From an uncultured Paracoccaceae bacterium (GTDB taxonomy: Bacteria > Pseudomonadota > Alphaproteobacteria > Rhodobacterales > Rhodobacteraceae), in contig CANMIX010000003.1 in the NCBI GenBank assembly GCA_947497985.1, forward strand, positions 62,001 to 126,000: a DNA stretch of 64,000 nucleotides, in the 5' to 3' direction. How positions within the stretch are numbered: position 1 is the first letter of the stretch; every line of letters starts with the position of its first letter. The notes under the pieces were generated by a model that did not search any database, was not told the origin of the DNA, and saw only the letters and a program-made list of their open reading frames with translations. Position numbers and translations under genes: made by a program. This document shows, piece after piece, positions 1 through 62,735 of the stretch.

Positions 1-879
1 GTTGTCGCGCAACATGGCTTCGGGTGAATAGAAAGGATGGGCTGCGATCTCTTGCTCTGACAGCTCCGCAATCAACCCCTGTGAAACGGGCCGTTCGTTT
101 TTGAACCATGCCCCGAAATAACAATAAAACCGGTTAATCTCCTCTGCGGCGCGTTGCGCATCTTCGAGGTCAGAAGCGATGTATGTGTGGTTCAGCAACA
201 TGATTTCAGGGCGTGGTACGTCAGGAAACTTGTCACAGGCTGCGTTGAATGTATCCATCAGTTTGATGATTTCCGCGTCGCCTTGCCAAAGCGGAGTCAC
301 CTGCACATGACAGCCGTTTGAGACCGCAAATTCGTGGCTGTTCGGGTCGCGCGCAGCAACCCAGATTGGGGGGCCGTTTTCTTGCATTGGTTTGGGTGAT
401 GAAGTGGTTTCGGGGAAAGAATGATATGTGCCTTCATGGGCATAATCGCCTGTCCACAATCCCTTGATGGCGGGCACCAATTCACGCATGCGCAACCCGG
501 CGTCCCATGCATCCATACCGGGAACCATTCGTTCGTATTCATAACTGTAGGCGCCTCGCGCGATACCGAGTTCTAGCCGTCCGTCGACGATCATATCGGT
601 CATCGCGGCCTCACCTGCCAGCCGGATGGGGTGCCAAAACGGAGCGATGACAGTGCCGGTCCCAAGGCGGACATTTTTGGTTTGGCGGGCGAGATCAATT
701 AGATTTAAGAATGGGTTCGGCGCGATGGTGAAGTCCATACCATGATGCTCACCCGTCCAAACCGCATGCATGCCGCCCTCATCTGCAATCTTAGCAAGGG
801 CAATGAATTCATCATAAAGCGCGCGCTGGTTCTGATCGCCAGAGGTCCGCTCCATATGGACAAAAAGTGAAAATCGCAT
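1..879 (-). CDS. Luciferase-like (LLM class) flavin-dependent monooxygenase, C-terminus cut by window edge
   Basis: The 293 visible codons read as a bacterial luciferase-like TIM barrel. The N-terminus MRFSLFVHMERTS is followed by GEHHGMDFTIAPNP and later RLGTGTVIAPFWHP, all typical of the family that uses reduced FMN and O2. The start is placed at 879 because AGGGGAA stands about six bases upstream. Only 9 bases separate it from the stop of the flavin reductase gene, so it is the last visible gene of a leftward operon DUF1185, alpha/beta hydrolase, flavin reductase, monooxygenase. The reductase would supply FMNH2. The substrate is unknown. The reading frame is open to base 1, so the true end lies outside. 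Confidence 0.9.
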   Translation of the reverse strand, partial: MRFSLFVHMERTSGDQNQRALYDEFIALAKIADEGGMHAVWTGEHHGMDFTIAPNPFLNLIDLARQTKNVRLGTGTVIAPFWHPIRLAGEAAMTDMIVDGRLELGIARGAYSYEYERMVPGMDAWDAGLRMRELVPAIKGLWTGDYAHEGTYHSFPETTSSPKPMQENGPPIWVAARDPNSHEFAVSNGCHVQVTPLWQGDAEIIKLMDTFNAACDKFPDVPRPEIMLLNHTYIASDLEDAQRAAEEINRFYCYFGAWFKNERPVSQGLIAELSEQEIAAHPFYSPEAMLRDN

Positions 880-888
880 GTGGTTCCC

Positions 889-1797
889 CTATGCTATCGG
901 GCGGACTTCGCCACTGTTTTGGTTTCCGTAGTAAATGCCAAAGCTTCCAATGATGGCCTCGCGGCTCAACCGCTCCAACATGCTCAAAATGGCCGGGTCC
1001 GACACATCATCTAGTGCGGTTGTGTTCAGCGGAACAAAGGTTCCGTGTTTGGGCGTGCCCTGTGCCGCGGAGCATAAAAACGCAATATGTTGGCGCTTGC
1101 GTCCGAGATCTTCGAAAATGGAATAGATAAATCCTGGCTTTGCCGTCAGGCCCGCCGCGTCAATCAGGCTTTGTACAGCGGCCGCGGTGCCTTGGTCCTT
1201 CACGGACGTTTCAGGCAGTGCCAAACCGCCGTTGCCATCATCAATAAGGAGCACCTCACCATTCCGTTCAATCACAGCTGAGACGATCAAATTGCTGTTC
1301 TGGGCGAGGGCCTCTGCCGACATAGCCGGGGTTACATAGGCACCGCCGACATAGCCCAAACCGGGGTTGGATGATTGATCAAATGCCATAACGGTGCCGA
1401 TCAGAATCACGTGGTCCCCTGCTTCAACGGTTTTATGCATGGCGCAGTCAAACCAAGCGGACACATCCGCAAGGATTGGCGACCCATGAGGGCCGTTTTC
1501 CCATTGCGTGGTGGCAAAGCGGTCTGCAACGGGCCACGCAAATGTATTGGAAACATCGACCTGAGTTTCGGCTAGAACGTTCACCGCAAATCCGTCCGCT
1601 GAGGTAAGCGCGTCGTAGTTTTGGGATGTTTTCGCCAGGCAGACCAAAACCAACGGCGGATCCAGCGAGACAGATGTGAAAGAGTTCGCCGTAAACCCAA
1701 TCGGCTCGCGGTTTTTGTCATACGCGGTCACGACGGTCACGCCTGTCATAAAGCTGCCAAAAGCATTGCGAAGGGCCCGGGGATCAAGCGAGGTCAT
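889..1797 (-). CDS. Flavin reductase (HpaC/RutF-like) with C-terminal degenerate NUDIX-like domain
   Basis: The product is 302 residues. Residues about 1-160 form a flavin reductase domain (AFGSFMTGVTVVTA, GFTANSFTSVSLDPPLV, GHSP-like loop, then GDHVILIGTV) expected to reduce FMN with NAD(P)H. Residues about 170-300 look like a NUDIX fold (VSAVIERNGEVLLIDDGNGG), but where the box should read REUxEE the sequence reads VQSLIDAAGL, so hydrolase activity is unlikely. The start at 1797 overlaps the hydrolase stop as ATGA and has AAGGAGC upstream. It sits just before the luciferase-like monooxygenase and is its probable partner. The NUDIX call is by eye; the reductase call is firm. Confidence 0.88.
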   Translation of the reverse strand: MTSLDPRALRNAFGSFMTGVTVVTAYDKNREPIGFTANSFTSVSLDPPLVLVCLAKTSQNYDALTSADGFAVNVLAETQVDVSNTFAWPVADRFATTQWENGPHGSPILADVSAWFDCAMHKTVEAGDHVILIGTVMAFDQSSNPGLGYVGGAYVTPAMSAEALAQNSNLIVSAVIERNGEVLLIDDGNGGLALPETSVKDQGTAAAVQSLIDAAGLTAKPGFIYSIFEDLGRKRQHIAFLCSAAQGTPKHGTFVPLNTTALDDVSDPAILSMLERLSREAIIGSFGIYYGNQNSGEVRPIA

Positions 1798-2606
1798 AGC
1801 TGCTCCTTTTTCGTAACGGGCATTTTTAGCCATGCATCCAGATGTGCGTTTACGGTTTCCGCTGCAGTCAACGAGACCATGTGGCGATGCCCGTCGATCA
1901 CAATGGCATGTCCATCGGGCGCACCGGCGACCATTGCCCGTGACATTTCGGGCGTCGAATTGGGGTCATCGCTCCCGGTCAGGGCTGCAAAGGGGCATTG
2001 GATGTGAGGGTATTGCGCCGCATATGTCGCGTCACCGTGCGCGAATGCAGTATAGGCCGTGGCATACCCATCCAGATCAACAGCACCAAGCCATTGTGCC
2101 ACTTGGTCGCGTGTCCGTTGATCAATCGCGCTGTCGCCAAACCAGCGTGCCAGCGGCGTTTGCAGATCGAATTCACGCCTCTTGATCTGGCTTGCGCGGC
2201 CTCGCACGGCGGTACGTGCCGCTTCGTCGCGACAAAAGACACCGTTGATCAGGCAAACGCGGGCGGTCAGGTTGGGATAGTCCACCGCAAATCCGCCAGC
2301 GATCAGCGCGCCCATGGAGTGGCCCGCGATGTTTACAGGCCCAAGATCCAATGTCTGAACCACATCGCCGCACCACGCAACAAAGGCACGCAAATCGCTT
2401 CCTGCGGGGAGGGGGGCACTGCCACCATGACCCGGCATGTCTACTGCAATGACGCGGTGCGTTTTGCTCAGCGCTTGGATCTGCGGCGCCCAAGCTGCCG
2501 ATTGCATTCCTACGCCGTGGATCAAGAGGAGCGGTGCACCAGCCCCCTGATCACGCAGGGCAACCGTAAGACCTGAACTAGACAGACGCAGGGTTGTCGA
2601 CGTCAT
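1794..2606 (-). CDS. Alpha/beta-fold hydrolase
   Basis: The product is 270 residues with a complete alpha/beta hydrolase layout: oxyanion region LLIHGVGMQSAAW, then VDMPGHGGS, the nucleophile elbow GHSMG (about residue 95) and a C-terminal catalytic histidine in DGHRHMVSL. It resembles 3-oxoadipate enol-lactonase-type enzymes, but the substrate cannot be read from sequence. The start has GAAGGAG nine bases upstream. It overlaps the end of the DUF1185 gene by 29 bases and its stop overlaps the flavin reductase start, so the genes are translationally coupled. By context it probably hydrolyses a lactone, ester or amide made by the monooxygenase (inference). Confidence 0.88.
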   Translation of the reverse strand: MTSTTLRLSSSGLTVALRDQGAGAPLLLIHGVGMQSAAWAPQIQALSKTHRVIAVDMPGHGGSAPLPAGSDLRAFVAWCGDVVQTLDLGPVNIAGHSMGALIAGGFAVDYPNLTARVCLINGVFCRDEAARTAVRGRASQIKRREFDLQTPLARWFGDSAIDQRTRDQVAQWLGAVDLDGYATAYTAFAHGDATYAAQYPHIQCPFAALTGSDDPNSTPEMSRAMVAGAPDGHAIVIDGHRHMVSLTAAETVNAHLDAWLKMPVTKKEQL

Positions 2607-3180
2607 GCCCCAGCTCCTTCAGATCTTGGTAACGGTCACCAATACGGTGATGCGGGCGCCCGCCAATTGAGGCCCCCAAGGCGATTAGGATTTCGTCGCT
2701 GGCCGGCGCATCCGCCACCGAGGTTTGAATGGTTAGATAATGCGAGCGTCGCCCGCCGTCGTTTTTATCCATCAAGGGGATCATCAACGGGGCATTTGCA
2801 GGCCCGCGTGTGTTGCAGAACGACAGATAGGATTTTGCTCCCACCGCGTTGCGGTAGTGATTGCCAAAATGCAGGGTGTGGATCAGGGCCGAGGCATGCT
2901 CGACCTCGCCATTCAGGCCGACTATTCCCGCCTTGCCGTATCCTTCGACCTTATCGCCGCCGCCGGCTGCGTCCAGAACCATCTCGGTCAACATTGCGCC
3001 AAGGCCTGACGCGCAATCGCGAATTTCAGGCGCCAGATCCTCAACAAATCCACGCCCCGCCCATGGGTTCCGGATAACCGCAATCGCAGCGATCATTTTT
3101 AACGGTGTCGCGGCGGGCTTCCCGCCTTCGATCAACGTGTTTTCAACATGCAAAAGTGTTTTGCGAATTTCAGCAGGCAT
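2578..3180 (-). CDS. Amino acid synthesis family protein (DUF1185, PF06684)
   Basis: The 200-residue product matches the DUF1185 pattern: MPAEIRKTLLHVENTLIEGG at the N-terminus, then AVIRNPWAGRGFVEDL, YGKAGIVGLNGEVEHASALIH and GRRSHYLTIQ. Known structures of the family show a chorismate-mutase-like fold with a proposed role in amino-acid metabolism; no reaction is established. The start at 3180 is chosen because AAGGA lies about nine bases upstream; a longer frame to 3243 would run through the operator region. It is the first gene of the leftward operon and its 5' end faces the GntR gene. The adjacent oxygenase genes suggest a catabolic job. Confidence 0.85.
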   Translation of the reverse strand: MPAEIRKTLLHVENTLIEGGKPAATPLKMIAAIAVIRNPWAGRGFVEDLAPEIRDCASGLGAMLTEMVLDAAGGGDKVEGYGKAGIVGLNGEVEHASALIHTLHFGNHYRNAVGAKSYLSFCNTRGPANAPLMIPLMDKNDGGRRSHYLTIQTSVADAPASDEILIALGASIGGRPHHRIGDRYQDLKELGHDVDNPASV

Positions 3181-3216
3181 AGCGGTGTCATCCTTGGGGT
3201 CTTTGTATGAACGAAG

Positions 3217-3252
3217 ATGGTATACCATAAGACAATATGTCAATCATATTGT
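3217..3252. promoter_or_regulatory. Two inverted repeats in the divergent promoter, probable GntR operators
   Basis: The first repeat, ATGGTATACCAT (3217-3228), is a perfect 12-base palindrome of the kind bound by FCD-type GntR regulators. The second is ACAATATG at 3232-3239 and CATATTGT at 3245-3252, perfect 8-base arms around a 5-base spacer. Both lie between the DUF1185 start and the gntR start, so one regulator could control both directions. Confidence 0.6.
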
Positions 3253-3284
3253 TCACTCAAACCAGTTCAGCTATGATCGGACGC

Positions 3285-3986
3285 ATGGAAAAAGCTGAAC
3301 TGATGCTCGAAAAAATTGAAAAAGCGCCGCAAACGTTACGGGATATCGTACAAAATCGCCTGAGAGAGGCCATTTTGAGGGGCCAGTTTGCGCCCGGATC
3401 GCGTTTGGTCGAGCGCCCGCTATGTGAGCAACTGGGGGTGAGCCGTACCGTTGTTCGCGAAACGATTCGCTATCTGGAGGCCGAAGGGCTGGTCGAAATT
3501 ATCCCAAACCGTGGTCCAATCGTCGCCACACTGAATTGGGATCAGGCCAAACAGGTTTATGATATCCGCCGCCAACTGGAACGCGCGGCTGCAGGTGCTT
3601 GCGCACAATCGCAAGGCGCGGATTTTGCGCCAAAGCTCTCTGCGGCTCTGGCGACGTTGCAAAGCAAAGTGAACGACACCGAATGGCTCGGCTTTTTGCA
3701 GGCGACGACGCATTTCTACCAGCTGATCTTTGAAGAGGCTGGTCATCATATTGCATGGGATATCGTTCAGCGGCTGAATGGCCGGATCAGCAGGCTGCGC
3801 ACCCTGACAATTGCCGATAAAACCCGTGAACGCGCAGGAATGAGCCATATGATCGCTATACACGACAGTATCCTAAGCGGCGATGTGCAACGCGCTGAAC
3901 AGGCGGTCGAAGATCACATTGCGGACGCGGCAAAAGTGGCCAATCGGTTCCTGAACGACACAACGATGGAACATGGAAATGGCTAA
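3285..3986 (+). CDS. GntR family transcriptional regulator (FCD type)
   Basis: The product is 233 residues from the chosen start. Residues about 10-75 hold the winged helix (LREAILRGQFAPGSRLVERPL, LGVSRTVVRETIRYLEAEGLV). The rest is a helical FCD ligand domain with YDIRRQLERAAAG and later a conserved-type MSHMIAIHDSILSGD. Starts at 3273 and 3303 are also possible because no strong ribosome binding site stands out. It is divergent from the DUF1185-monooxygenase operon and its stop overlaps the DUF1330 gene, so it probably regulates both arms through the palindromes at 3217-3252. Ligand unknown. Confidence 0.88.
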   Translation: MEKAELMLEKIEKAPQTLRDIVQNRLREAILRGQFAPGSRLVERPLCEQLGVSRTVVRETIRYLEAEGLVEIIPNRGPIVATLNWDQAKQVYDIRRQLERAAAGACAQSQGADFAPKLSAALATLQSKVNDTEWLGFLQATTHFYQLIFEEAGHHIAWDIVQRLNGRISRLRTLTIADKTRERAGMSHMIAIHDSILSGDVQRAEQAVEDHIADAAKVANRFLNDTTMEHGNG

Positions 3987-4287
3987 AGGGTATTGGATTG
4001 CATCTGTCACCGTTACGGATGCGGCACGCTATGCGGGGTATCAAAGCTATGCGCCTGCGGCCTTTGAAAAATACGGTGCCCGCTTTTTGGCGCGGGGAGG
4101 CGCGGCCGTTACCCTCGAAGGACAAGAATTCGAGCGCCATGTGATCATTGAATTCGACAGCAAGGATCAAGCGCTCGCCTGCTATCACTCCGCCGAATAC
4201 CAAAAAGCCCGCAGCCACCGTGACGCCGCGTGCACAGCCAACATTACGATCGTCGAAGGCCTCCCTTTGACTGCCGCCCAATCATAA
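3979..4287 (+). CDS. DUF1330 domain-containing protein
   Basis: A 102-residue protein beginning MAKGYWIASVTVTDAARYAGY, the classic DUF1330 opening, followed by YGARFLARGG and HVIIEFDSKDQALACYHS near the middle. The fold is a small ferredoxin-like dimeric barrel; biochemical function is generally unknown. The start at 3979 overlaps the gntR stop (3984-3986); an ATG two codons upstream (3973) is an alternative. It sits between gntR and the decarboxylase-like gene, and probably belongs to the same pathway. Confidence 0.85.
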   Translation: MAKGYWIASVTVTDAARYAGYQSYAPAAFEKYGARFLARGGAAVTLEGQEFERHVIIEFDSKDQALACYHSAEYQKARSHRDAACTANITIVEGLPLTAAQS

Positions 4288-4297
4288 GGACATACAC

Positions 4298-4678
4298 ATG
4301 GACAGCTTTGACGAAGATCTGTTTCTTAAAGGCTTGGAACAACGCAAGGCGACGCTGGGCGCAGAGTATGTAGAAACTAATCTCGCTGCCGCAGATGATT
4401 TCACCAGACCTTTTCAAGAGGCGATGACAGCGTGGTGTTGGGGATTTGGCTGGGGGGATGACGTCATAGACGCCAAGACACGGTCAATGATGAACCTTGC
4501 TATGCTAGGCGCATTGGGCAAGATGTCGGAATGGGAGCTGCACTGCCGCGGGGCGATCAACAACGGCGTCACCAAAGAAGAAGTTCGCGCAATCATCCAT
4601 GTCATTGCGATTTACTGTGGTGTTCCGCAGGGGCTGGAATGCTTTAGAGCGGCCAAGAAGGTGTTTGTTCAAGAGTGA
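4298..4678 (+). CDS. Carboxymuconolactone decarboxylase family protein (PcaC-like)
   Basis: The 126-residue product has the CMD pattern: W-G-DDVIDAKTRSMMNLAMLGAL, then ELHCRGAINNGVTKEEVRAIIHVIAIYCGVP (cited in parts). The CxxC of AhpD-type peroxidases is absent, so the PcaC-like decarboxylase branch fits better. AGGA stands seven bases before the ATG. It is the last gene of the gntR-DUF1330 arm and ends the cluster. PcaC itself opens and decarboxylates gamma-carboxymuconolactone, but no other beta-ketoadipate genes are here, so the substrate may differ. Confidence 0.85.
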   Translation: MDSFDEDLFLKGLEQRKATLGAEYVETNLAAADDFTRPFQEAMTAWCWGFGWGDDVIDAKTRSMMNLAMLGALGKMSEWELHCRGAINNGVTKEEVRAIIHVIAIYCGVPQGLECFRAAKKVFVQE

Positions 4679-5175: not shown

Positions 5176-6129
5176 TCATTCGGTTTTGCGACGCGTTTTT
5201 TGGCGCAAAAAGACGGTGACATTTGGGCCGGTGCTGGTGACGGCTCGGCTGCGGGTTTTGAGAACTGGTGTGTTGTCTGAACGTCCGCCACTGGCCTCGC
5301 GCATGACGATGAATATACCGCTGGAGATGATGATAGCCGCGCCCAAAAGTGTCATAAAATCAATGGTATCTCCAAAGAGAAGCGTTCCATAGATGGTGGC
5401 CCAGATGATCTGTGAGTACTGCATGGGGGCGACGGTTGCTGCTTCGCCGTGGGTATAGGATTTGACCAAAAGCAGGGTCGCACAGAAGCCGAGGCAGGCC
5501 ACGATCGCGAGGCTGCCAAGCTCGCTGGCTTGTAACGGGGCATAGGTGAAGGGCAGAGCAATCCCCATGACGATGACGGTGGCCAGCATTGGGTAAAGCA
5601 TCAAGACAACAGAGCGTTCCTCGTTGCTGATTTTGCGCAGGATGACCGATTGAAATGCGTTGCCAAAAGCCGCAACCAGAGCTGCGGCATGCCCGAGGCC
5701 CAGTTGCGTGTCGCCCGGGCGGAGCACGACCAGAACGCCGATGAAACCAACGGCAACGGCCGCCATCCGCGGCAGTCCCACGCGTTCCTTTAGGATGGGG
5801 ATCGACAACAGCGTGATCAGCAGCGGCGTTGCAAAAAACAGGGCATAGGCCTCGGCAAGGGGAAGAACGGAAAACGCATAAAATGCACAAAGCGGGATGA
5901 CGGGGATAATGGCCGCGCGGGTGATCGTCCAACTGGGCTTGTTGGGGCGCAGGTTCCCAAGAGTTTTGTCACGCACCATCATCACTGTCAGAAGCGGAAA
6001 AGACAGCAAGCAGCTGAAGAACACGATCTGGAAGGCTGATTGGGTATCACTCACGAATTTTACAATGACATCGTGCGTGGAAAAAATCCCATAGGCCAAC
6101 AGCGCATAGAGGGTCGCTTTTGCGTTCAT
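5176..6129 (-). CDS. DMT superfamily (EamA) transporter
   Basis: The 317-residue product is almost entirely hydrophobic, with about ten membrane segments in two EamA repeats (first half ALLAYGIFSTHDVIVKFVS through LVVLRPGD, second half AALVAAFGNAFQSVILRKIS to GAAIIISSGIFIVMRE). Such proteins export amino acids, nucleosides or other small metabolites; the substrate cannot be told. Start 6129 is chosen because MNAKATLYALL begins the first membrane helix; upstream codons would add a polar extension unlike the family. It follows leuB after a terminator, so it is probably a separate unit. Confidence 0.85.
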   Translation of the reverse strand: MNAKATLYALLAYGIFSTHDVIVKFVSDTQSAFQIVFFSCLLSFPLLTVMMVRDKTLGNLRPNKPSWTITRAAIIPVIPLCAFYAFSVLPLAEAYALFFATPLLITLLSIPILKERVGLPRMAAVAVGFIGVLVVLRPGDTQLGLGHAAALVAAFGNAFQSVILRKISNEERSVVLMLYPMLATVIVMGIALPFTYAPLQASELGSLAIVACLGFCATLLLVKSYTHGEAATVAPMQYSQIIWATIYGTLLFGDTIDFMTLLGAAIIISSGIFIVMREASGGRSDNTPVLKTRSRAVTSTGPNVTVFLRQKTRRKTE

Positions 6130-6230
6130 AACGGCATACCGAGTTACAGAGAGGTTTCGTGACAGCGCGAGCGTGTCATAAGAGGCCTGGCAGAAACAAG
6201 CTTTTGCTGTCTCGGCTGGCAAAAAGATAA

Positions 6231-23057: not shown

Positions 23058-24533
23058 CTATACGGACATGCAGATGTATTTCATCTCCAAGTAGTCTTCG
23101 ATCCCGTGGTGACTACCTTCACGACCAAGGCCAGATTGTTTGATGCCGCCAAAGGGCGCATTCTCGGTCGAGATAATGCCGGTGTTTACCCCAACGATTC
23201 CGTATTCCAATGCCTCTGCCACCTTGTAAACGCGGCTCAGATCCTTGGCATAGAAATAGGACGCGAGACCAAAGATCGTGTCATTGGCCATCGCGATCAC
23301 CTCGTCTTCGTCCTCAAACTTGAACAAGGGTGCCATCGGGCCAAATGTCTCATCCGTGGCAAAGATCATGTCGGTGGTCGCGCCGGTCAAGATTGTGGGT
23401 TCAAAGAACGTGCTGCCCAAATCAGACCGATTGCCGCCCAAGATGACTTTTGCGCCTTTGGCCGTCGCGTCGGCAATGTGCTCTTCGACCTTGGTGACTG
23501 CCTTGGCGTTGATCAGTGGACCAAAGGCGCTGTCGACCTCAAACCCATCGCCAATTTTCATCTTGGCGACTTTGGCACGCAGTTTCTCTGCAAAGGCGTC
23601 ATAGACGCCGGCCTGGACGTAAATCCGATTGGCACAGACGCAGGTTTGCCCGTTGTTGCGGAACTTGCACATGATGGCACCATCGACAGCAGCATCCAGA
23701 TCGGCGTCGTCAAAGACAATAAAGGGCGCGTTGCCGCCCAGCTCCATCGAGCATTTCATCACGCTATCGGCCGCCTGACGCAGCAGAATGCGACCGACAT
23801 TGGTGGACCCGGTAAAGGTCAGCTTGCGCACGGCATCGTTTTCGCAGAACTCTTGGCCAATTTCGGCGGCGTTGAGGCTTGGCACCACGTTGAACACGCC
23901 TGCGGGGATGCCAGCGCGGTCGGCCAGCACCGCCAGTGCCGTCGCCGACAGCGGTGTCTCTTCGGACGGGCGCGCGACAAAGGCACAGCCTGCCGCCAAT
24001 GCGGGGCCTGCTTTGCGGGTGATCATTGCATTTGGAAAGTTCCACGGCGTGATCGACGCGGCAACCCCGATGGGTTGTTTCAGCACCGTGATACGTTTGT
24101 CGCGTTGATGGCCGGGGATCGTCTCCCCATAGATGCGCTTGGCTTCTTCGCCAAAAAACTCAATGAAGGACGCACCATAGGCGATTTCACCGCGTGCTTC
24201 GGACAAGGGTTTGCCCATCTCCGCGGTTAAGATGATGGCCAGATCTTCCTGGTTTTCCATGATCAGATCATAAAATTGGCGCAACAAGACAGCGCGTTCC
24301 TTGCCGGTCCATTTGGCCCATTCTTTCTGGGCGACTTCGGCTTGCGCAATCGCGCCTGCAACTTGAGCCCGTGAGAGGTCGGCAACTTGTGCGACAACGT
24401 CACCGCGCGCCGGGTTGATGACGTCAAAAGCACCGTTGTCGCCGTCCACAAAGGCACCCCCAATATAGGCGCGCGTTTCGAGAAGGGATGTGTCTTTGAG
24501 AAGAGATTTGAGGTCGGTTGCGACGGCGGTCAT
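23058..24533 (-). CDS. gabD: NAD(P)-dependent succinate-semialdehyde dehydrogenase
   Basis: The 491-residue product is an aldehyde dehydrogenase of the SSADH branch: ITPWNFPNAMITRKAGPALAAG, the catalytic Glu in MELGGNAPFIVFDDADLD and the catalytic Cys in NNGQTCVCANR. ARPSEETPLSA replaces the more usual KPAExTP. The start MTAVATDLKSLL is preceded by AAGGAA. It should oxidise succinate semialdehyde to succinate, feeding the TCA cycle, though related aldehydes are possible. It is divergent from creatinase; inverted repeats fill the gap. Confidence 0.92.
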   Translation of the reverse strand: MTAVATDLKSLLKDTSLLETRAYIGGAFVDGDNGAFDVINPARGDVVAQVADLSRAQVAGAIAQAEVAQKEWAKWTGKERAVLLRQFYDLIMENQEDLAIILTAEMGKPLSEARGEIAYGASFIEFFGEEAKRIYGETIPGHQRDKRITVLKQPIGVAASITPWNFPNAMITRKAGPALAAGCAFVARPSEETPLSATALAVLADRAGIPAGVFNVVPSLNAAEIGQEFCENDAVRKLTFTGSTNVGRILLRQAADSVMKCSMELGGNAPFIVFDDADLDAAVDGAIMCKFRNNGQTCVCANRIYVQAGVYDAFAEKLRAKVAKMKIGDGFEVDSAFGPLINAKAVTKVEEHIADATAKGAKVILGGNRSDLGSTFFEPTILTGATTDMIFATDETFGPMAPLFKFEDEDEVIAMANDTIFGLASYFYAKDLSRVYKVAEALEYGIVGVNTGIISTENAPFGGIKQSGLGREGSHHGIEDYLEMKYICMSV

Positions 24534-61862: not shown

Positions 61863-62735
61863 ATGGATACAAAAAGCGGACAGATTCAGGATGTTTCAGG
61901 ACCCGAGCAGGCCTATCATTATGGTGTGATCCGCCGGGCGATGGAGGCCATTGATAAATGCGATGACAGTCTGCCGCTCGAAAACTTGGCATCGCAGATG
62001 GGGATGAGTCCATCACATTTTCAGCGGGTGTTTTCCAGTTGGGTAGGAGTGTCTCCAAAACGGTATCAGCAATATCTGCGACTGGGGCATGCCAAATCAT
62101 TGTTGAAAGATCGCTTTACCACATTGGAGACCGCGCATGCCGTTGGGTTAACTGGATCGGGTCGGCTACATGATCTTTTCCTGCGTTGGGAAGCGATGAG
62201 CCCTGGGGACTACGCGCGCCGTGGATCAGGATTGCAGATCTACTGGGGCTGGTTTGACAGCCCGTTTGGGCTAACCTTGGCGATGGGAACGGACCGTGGA
62301 TTGTGTGGCATCGCCTTTGCGGCAGAAACCGGGGCCGAACCTGCGATGGCGGATATGCGGGCCCGTTGGCCGAACGCCGATTTCGTCGAAGATCCCATGC
62401 AATTGCGGCCCTGGGTCGACGGGGCCTTTGCGCAGAAGGGGGAGACAAAGCTCTACCTGATCGGGGCTCCCTTGCAGATCAAGGTCTGGGAGGCATTACT
62501 GCGCATCCCGTCTGGGCATGTGACCACATATTCGGAACTGGCCGTTGCGGCAGGTGCACCCAAGGCCGTGCGCGCGGTTGGAACCGCAGTGGGGCGTAAC
62601 CCGATCAGCTGGCTTATTCCCTGCCATCGCGCCTTGCGTAAATCGGGAGCGTTGGGCGGGTATCATTGGGGATTGCCCGTCAAACGGGCGATGCTCGCCT
62701 ATGAGGCTGCCCGAACAGAAGAAGTCGCAATTTAG
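61863..62735 (+). CDS. AraC-type HTH fused to methylated-DNA-protein-cysteine methyltransferase
   Basis: The 290-residue product has an AraC helix-turn-helix (residues about 30-115: LENLASQMGMSPSHFQRVFSSW, GVSPKRYQQYLRL) followed by an Ogt/Ada-C domain (VWEALLRIPSGHVTTYSELA, catalytic IPCHRAL, GYHWGLPVKRAMLAYE). The zinc-binding N-terminal domain of Ada, which repairs phosphotriesters, is missing. AAGGAGAG stands upstream of the ATG. It removes methyl groups from O6-methylguanine; whether it also regulates transcription is unclear. Confidence 0.92.
   Translation: MDTKSGQIQDVSGPEQAYHYGVIRRAMEAIDKCDDSLPLENLASQMGMSPSHFQRVFSSWVGVSPKRYQQYLRLGHAKSLLKDRFTTLETAHAVGLTGSGRLHDLFLRWEAMSPGDYARRGSGLQIYWGWFDSPFGLTLAMGTDRGLCGIAFAAETGAEPAMADMRARWPNADFVEDPMQLRPWVDGAFAQKGETKLYLIGAPLQIKVWEALLRIPSGHVTTYSELAVAAGAPKAVRAVGTAVGRNPISWLIPCHRALRKSGALGGYHWGLPVKRAMLAYEAARTEEVAI

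Follow-up and report, generated by a model that had tools for sequence, protein, structure and literature searches.

The window, i.e. the whole analysed stretch of 64,000 nucleotides (positions 62,001 to 126,000 of contig CANMIX010000003.1 from an uncultured Paracoccaceae bacterium), features at its left end a divergent gene cluster that is very probably, as judged by orthology, a catabolic operon for trigonelline (N-methylnicotinate) of the tgn type. A check of the open reading frames (ORFs) and a profile search of the window proteins confirm seven genes, with the places, families and divergent layout given in an earlier note on this DNA. Four genes lie on the minus strand: a TgnF-like protein of 200 amino acids belonging to DUF1185, also called AA_synth (2578–3180; PF06684, 226.5 bits); a TgnD-like alpha/beta hydrolase (1794–2606; PF00561/PF12697); a TgnA-like flavin reductase with a C-terminal extension (889–1797; PF01613 at residues 26–167); and a TgnB-like flavin-dependent luciferase-like monooxygenase (LLM; 1–879 and onward; PF00296). 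The plus strand carries a GntR/FCD-family transcriptional regulator (approximately 3285 to 3986; PF00392 and PF07729), a DUF1330 protein (3973–4287; PF07045), and a PcaC-like protein of the carboxymuconolactone decarboxylase family (CMD; 4298–4678; PF02627). The LLM gene is cut by the window edge. The earlier note had proposed to extend the sequence left of base 1, and reading the contig there places the true end of the gene at window position −158 and adds a fifth leftward gene to the operon: a TgnC-like aldehyde dehydrogenase of 488 amino acids, from −1634 to −168 and hence outside the window. Next to the left follow a serine-rich ORF of 139 amino acids, which may not be a real gene, and then a gene for a YgjP-like metallopeptidase, so that the operon apparently ends at the dehydrogenase.

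The start codons were set by comparison with annotated records of Marivivens and Ruegeria, in which the DUF1185 gene has 603 bases and the hydrolase and reductase genes overlap by 4 bases. The ORF start of the DUF1185 gene at 3243 (ORF 2578–3243) is probably too early and the start is placed at 3180; the reductase likely starts at 1797 instead of the ORF start at 1833, so that it shares the four bases ATGA with the hydrolase gene; and the GntR gene, with an ORF of 3237–3986, likely starts at about 3285. With the starts at 3180 and about 3285, the divergent genes are separated by a predicted gap of about 104 bases (3181–3284). The EamA gene at 5176–6222 was considered as a further member of the set and rejected, since EamA-like matches outside the window are limited to one family locus (L033, with two such ORFs at a distance of four genes from the operon) and to L122 among the named loci.

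The order of the operon—DUF1185, alpha/beta hydrolase, flavin reductase, LLM, aldehyde dehydrogenase—is the tgn order, and the tgn pathway for trigonelline was reportedly worked out in Acinetobacter baylyi by Perchat et al. in 2018 (PNAS). In a protein comparison, all eight genes are matched in the locus of A. baylyi DSM 14961, with identities of 72% for the LLM, 71% for the dehydrogenase, 68% for DUF1185 (the match beginning at residue 26 of the long ORF), 54% for DUF1330, 51% for the hydrolase, 48% each for GntR and CMD, and 46% for the reductase. The reductase match spans residues 19–313 (295 residues), and the C-terminal extension is therefore common to the A. baylyi reductase. With the window LLM as query, a protein search at E 1e-40 matched 326 plasmid records. 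One of these, an Acinetobacter plasmid, carries a gene 71% identical to the LLM and annotated as tgnB, the oxygenase component of a flavin-dependent trigonelline monooxygenase; the same record names the counterparts of the reductase, the LLM and the dehydrogenase as tgnA, tgnB and tgnC. DUF1330 and GntR are divergent there from DUF1185, hydrolase, tgnA, tgnB and tgnC, and tgnC is followed by a permease, a hypothetical gene, a succinate-semialdehyde dehydrogenase (SSADH) gene and a CMD gene.

A quick tree of 129 LLM rows, with its root drawn at the midpoint, places the window gene in a TgnB clade of 108 rows with a support of 97. The clade includes genes of Acinetobacter, most Burkholderiaceae and Rhizobiales. 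Outside it fall four second copies of Caballeronia and, with a support of 100, 17 rows of other LLM groups linked to DUF1185. For the hydrolase, the solved-structure matches include 3kxp, an alpha-(N-acetylaminomethylene)succinic acid hydrolase (E 1.8e-11, residues 8–137; rank 20 among 35 such matches). The locus thus features a TgnB ortholog with TgnA and TgnC adjacent, and TgnD and TgnF in the same position as in tgn clusters, the hydrolase at that position being presumably TgnD. Gene-by-gene orthology, the clade in the tree and the shared order together argue for a tgn operon with high confidence.

By this orthology the pathway is an already known one, and the operon one bacterium's copy of it. 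The earlier note had read the cluster as an uncharacterised catabolic pathway opening an N-heterocycle or lactone. It had the class of chemistry right, since oxygenation dependent on reduced flavin mononucleotide (FMNH2), subsequent hydrolysis and the opening of an N-heterocyclic ring all fit the tgn orthology; the one-to-one correspondence with named tgn genes in A. baylyi, however, makes an uncharacterised pathway very improbable. The observation is real, well conserved and rightly read in its chemistry, yet it concerns a known pathway.

The conservation of the operon was followed in 149 genomes of the same family, with an E-value threshold of 1e-60 for the LLM. The LLM is found at 39 places in 37 of the 149 genomes. 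At the 22 places with at least 63% identity, DUF1185 lies within 3.5 kb in 20, which bears out the expectation of the earlier note that the two genes co-occur in relatives; the two exceptions are a genome with no DUF1185 match at all and an operon running off the contig end. The other 17 places have 34–41% identity, and DUF1185 lies within 3.5 kb in 10 and within 6.5 kb in 16 of them. In addition, six plasmid loci were hand-picked from 40 listed rows, and the named-genome loci are the best 80 of 559 confirmed stretches, obtained by scanning with the TgnB protein of the Acinetobacter plasmid; more exist, and the locus of A. baylyi DSM 14961 is among the 80. All loci were selected by the monooxygenase, and the counts speak to the company it keeps, not to the frequency of the operon. 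All five genes of the leftward set keep their order in 19 of 22 family, 6 of 6 plasmid and 73 of 80 named loci, which exceeds chance. Two of the ten incomplete loci (L021 and L122) end at a contig edge, and in the other eight a gene was not found in the search. Anywhere in the fetched stretches, GntR is matched in 17 of 22 family, 6 of 6 plasmid and 72 of 80 named loci (any GntR relative being counted), and an SSADH of at least 50% identity in 2 of 22, 3 of 6 and 37 of 80, respectively.

Beside these loci, further arrangements were observed. Four Caballeronia genomes (L085, L086, L089 and L090) feature two tgn-like operons back to back, the second with an LLM 58% identical to that of the window. 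The loci L005–L012, with LLMs of 37–40% identity, show a second arrangement of LLM, dehydrogenase and DUF1185; one locus was searched for each named gene, giving a RidA-like gene in L005 and two genes that score below the NCBIfam cut-off, one crotonobetainyl-CoA-hydratase-like (L007) and one carnitine-dehydrogenase-like (L009), and some of the other loci have ORFs of similar size. A third arrangement—LLM, dehydrogenase, DUF1185 and hydrolase—occurs in L013–L020, with LLMs of 34–37% identity. Here, the two searched loci L013 and L017 carry a thiamine-diphosphate enzyme, which in L017 resembles sulfoacetaldehyde acetyltransferase below the family cut-off, and L018–L020 have ORFs of similar size.

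Several points weigh against the assignment to tgn. The operon is without an SSADH gene, unlike that of Acinetobacter: the search for an SSADH (TgnE) within the cluster was negative, and homologues occur only elsewhere in the genome. No transporter gene is linked to the operon, and a cytosine-permease-like gene is present in 51 of the 80 named loci and in none of the 22 family loci within the fetched stretches. The reductase and the hydrolase are only 46–51% identical to those of A. baylyi, and for the hydrolase NCBIfam gives PcaD-type models as the best matches, none of them reaching its cut-off. Furthermore, trigonelline use by this organism is predicted from its genes, and the pathway was studied experimentally in strain ADP1, whereas DSM 14961 provides the locus for the present comparison. 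Regarding the first point, SSADH linkage is judged not to define a tgn operon, because it is limited to 2 of 22 family loci and to 37 of 80 named ones.

The substrate itself has to be weighed as well. The operon could be related to tgn and keep its downstream steps, but have an oxygenase that now acts on another N-methylpyridinium compound or pyridine carboxylate, with homarine (N-methylpicolinate), a common marine osmolyte, as an example. The marine origin of the close LLM relatives speaks for such a shift, and the divergence of the DUF1185-linked LLMs—into the groups of 34–41% identity and the 58% second copies of Caballeronia—makes shifts likely in this line of enzymes. The window LLM, however, belongs to the TgnB clade, is 72% identical to its A. 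baylyi counterpart and sits in an operon of the same gene order, and a shifted substrate is accordingly improbable. The authors of PMC8269262 consider an action of TgnA/TgnB on homarine unlikely on steric grounds, and a distinct pathway for homarine was reported later (Nat Microbiol 2026, cited in PMC13390433). The trigonelline reading is also favoured by Ruegeria pomeroyi, presumably a relative, which grew less effectively on homarine than on trigonelline (PMC8269262).

The divergent region between the DUF1185 and GntR genes contains the palindrome ATGGTATACCAT at 3217–3228, a predicted GntR operator, which is covered in the window by the overlong DUF1185 ORF starting at 3243. It has no second match in the window, where 0.04 would be expected if one mismatch is allowed, and it is the sole exact copy in the 4.19-Mb genome, with one further place at one mismatch. 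With the three loci without a DUF1185 match left out, the core TGGTATACCA is present in the 200 bases preceding DUF1185 in 16 of 20 family, 5 of 6 plasmid and 59 of 79 named loci, and the full 12 bases in 11 of 20, 5 of 6 and 25 of 79, respectively; in base-shuffled upstream regions, the core occurs at a rate of 0.00013 or less. The family loci without the core are L039, L040, L041 and L043, and none of them has a GntR gene divergent next to DUF1185; L039 carries a LysR-family gene in its place. The LLMs of these four loci are 63–66% identical to that of the window, and their regulator or substrate is possibly a different one. Most likely, GntR regulates the leftward and the rightward genes alike, with ATGGTATACCAT as its predicted binding site.

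The two genes that follow GntR are less constant. DUF1330 is matched anywhere in the fetched stretches in 13 of 22 family, 3 of 6 plasmid and 60 of 80 named loci, and CMD in 7 of 22, 3 of 6 and 39 of 80. This patchiness in the family loci and their location on the strand opposite to the five-gene set would suit a separate small unit, e.g. a branch for aromatic lactones, with no more than the regulator in common with the leftward genes, which would be compatible with a tgn operon. In Acinetobacter, however, CMD follows the SSADH of the same cluster and DUF1330 stays beside GntR, and both recur in named tgn loci at the counts above; a separate unit is the less likely case. Within the tgn reading, DUF1330 and CMD are frequent companions to which no pathway step is assigned. 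CMD was also considered as a true PcaC (4-carboxymuconolactone decarboxylase) and rejected, as it reaches 118.7 bits against an equivalog cut-off of 155.7 in TIGR02425; it is thus PcaC-like and under threshold. No NCBIfam model matched DUF1185 or DUF1330.

Perchat et al. (2018) are said to describe a pathway in which an oxygenase cleaves the ring and the resulting hydroxybutyrolactone is oxidised, hydrolysis then reportedly yielding CO2, methylamine, formate and succinate semialdehyde, on which an SSADH reportedly acts with the help of a conserved hypothetical protein. By analogy, the TgnA-like reductase would supply FMNH2 to the TgnB-like LLM, which would open the pyridinium ring and thereby form (Z)-2-((N-methylformamido)methylene)-5-hydroxybutyrolactone, the metabolite given in the tgnC annotation of the Acinetobacter plasmid record. 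The TgnC-like dehydrogenase would oxidise this hydroxybutyrolactone, presumably to 2-((N-methylformamido)methylene)succinate, and the TgnD-like hydrolase would split the methylenesuccinate intermediate, presumably into methylamine, formate, CO2 and succinate semialdehyde. An SSADH encoded elsewhere in the genome would then form succinate with the help of DUF1185 (TgnF). Ring opening by TgnA/TgnB is likewise the first step according to PMC8269262.

With the SSADH of the Acinetobacter plasmid cluster as query, 12 matches were obtained in the genome, and the two best are 56% identical (contig C2) and 54% identical (minus strand of the window, 23073–24485, a candidate SSADH outside the operon). 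The copy on contig C2 scores above the SSADH cut-off of TIGR01780 and below that of NF008415. The methylamine could enter the gamma-glutamylmethylamide route as a fifth step. The genome encodes a glutamate-ammonia ligase of type III, which scores 662 bits where the cut-off is 470 and is of a family that presumably includes the methylamine ligase GmaS. The ligase lies close to genes of trimethylamine monooxygenase and trimethylamine N-oxide demethylase on contig C9 (L163:1443-8977), and this vicinity makes methylamine assimilation plausible in this genome. The grouping of the three genes points in itself to the use of methylated amines.

DUF1185 is the one conserved member of the otherwise known tgn set that is still without a proven reaction. 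The AlphaFold model of the window protein, built from 34 of 78 sequences (the window protein and 33 of 77), has a mean pLDDT of 85.7. The fold search gave three chains below E 0.001, all from the known DUF1185 structures 3byq and 2qtp, with no reaction named. Across 153 sequences, the residues kept to at least 90% in four context groups include Glu92, Glu94, His95, His101, Arg110, Arg145 and Arg179, of which Glu92 and Arg145 are not kept in 7 sequences of other context. In the family sample, PF06684 gives 150 matches in 93 of the 149 genomes, each fragment and each tandem copy counting as one. Of these matches, 36 have an LLM gene within 6.5 kb, 87 have a 6-hydroxynicotinate-reductase-like gene within 6.5 kb—an identity taken from the annotation of relatives—and none is near both. 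The remaining 27, some at contig ends or fragments, are near neither, and the opened ones have mixed company, e.g. an amidohydrolase (L145), a Rieske oxygenase (L147), a GlcD-like oxidase (L146) or a fumarylacetoacetate-hydrolase-fold gene (L140). Conversely, DUF1185 is found no more than 6.5 kb away at 58 of 67 reductase places. A phylum sample of 160 genomes, sharing four with the family sample, gives 26 DUF1185 matches in 19 genomes, 8 near an LLM, 10 near a reductase and 8 near neither; DUF1185 lies within 6.5 kb at 8 of 9 LLM places and in 9 of 10 reductase genomes.

These neighbourhood counts make DUF1185 look like a protein of pyridine catabolism rather than of amino acid synthesis, as its Pfam name AA_synth has it: 123 of the 150 family matches are near an LLM or a 6-hydroxynicotinate-reductase-like gene, a count made with no search for biosynthesis genes. 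In two annotated plasmid clusters, the reductase is followed by one further gene, which one of the two records annotates as UPF0280, and then by two PF06684 genes. Both clusters have genes of a branched-chain-type ABC transporter, and their molybdenum hydroxylase gene adjoins the reductase in one and is about 8 kb off in the other. In PMC2954203, the amino-acid idea for DUF1185 rests partly on such transporters beside SPO0826, and the branched-chain amino acid-type transporters of the reductase clusters are a likely reason for this link. Clusters that combine two DUF1185 genes with 6-hydroxynicotinate reductase, a molybdenum hydroxylase and a UPF0280-type gene are L134:2678-8867, L167 and L168; the transporter genes are noted for the two plasmid clusters.

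As for the reaction, the earlier note had expected the gene set to reveal it, and this stands in part: according to PMC7913881, the DUF1185 homologue TgnF stimulates the TgnE-dependent oxidation of succinate semialdehyde, while no reaction assigned to DUF1185 (TgnF) was found in the literature searched. In the other LLM groups, identity to the window proteins is 41–66% for DUF1185 (a value being available for 14 of 17 loci) and 44–59% for the dehydrogenase, against 34–41% for the LLM. This points to a role of DUF1185 and the dehydrogenase further along the routes, on intermediates that these share. Tentatively, and with a rather low expectation, DUF1185 is proposed to be a general enzyme of pyridine catabolism that turns 2-formyl-dicarboxylates into semialdehydes, by decarboxylation or by shifting the balance of enol and aldehyde; its substrates would be formylsuccinate from trigonelline and 2-formylglutarate from nicotinate. 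Both routes should, with a putative trigonelline intermediate and a putative nicotinate step, pass a 2-formyl-dicarboxylate that loses CO2 to give a semialdehyde. This would explain the presence of DUF1185 in two chemically unrelated ring-opening routes, its conservation above that of the oxygenase in the operons with other LLM types, and the reported stimulation by TgnF.

Against the proposal stand HcdD, a DUF1185 protein of a coumarin cluster that misfits this chemistry and for which the authors could measure no effect (PMC7913881), the CMD protein as a rival for the decarboxylation step, TgnD-like hydrolases, which may release CO2 unaided, and the 27 of 150 family and 8 of 26 phylum matches that occur in neither context. 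No paper linking DUF1185 to 2-formyl-dicarboxylates of pyridine rings was found in a search that covered few subscription papers.

Trigonelline is an osmolyte of plants and phytoplankton, and the operon is an ordinary but ecologically useful marker of its probable use: the bacterium can probably draw carbon and methylamine nitrogen from it. The wider point concerns the DUF1185 family, named for amino acid synthesis in Pfam on weak grounds, as its neighbourhood counts point to pyridine-ring catabolism and offer a concrete reaction that can be tested.

The system most similar to the window operon is the tgn cluster of A. baylyi, which features the same five-gene order, a divergent GntR with DUF1330, and CMD within the cluster. 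In contrast to A. baylyi, the SSADH of the window organism lies elsewhere and no permease is attached to the operon, and CMD is located on the regulator side instead of after SSADH. The nicotinate clusters with 6-hydroxynicotinate reductase of the Azorhizobium caulinodans type share DUF1185 with the window, often in two copies, and are likewise read as degrading a pyridine carboxylate (PMC3511419). However, they employ a molybdenum hydroxylase and a reductase where the window operon has an FMNH2-dependent oxygenase, and their DUF1185 proteins are 33–41% identical to the window protein in the opened loci. The hcdDEFG cluster for 7-hydroxycoumarin of Pseudomonas mandelii 7HK4 differs from the window operon in that the available part of its description mentions no luciferase-like monooxygenase.

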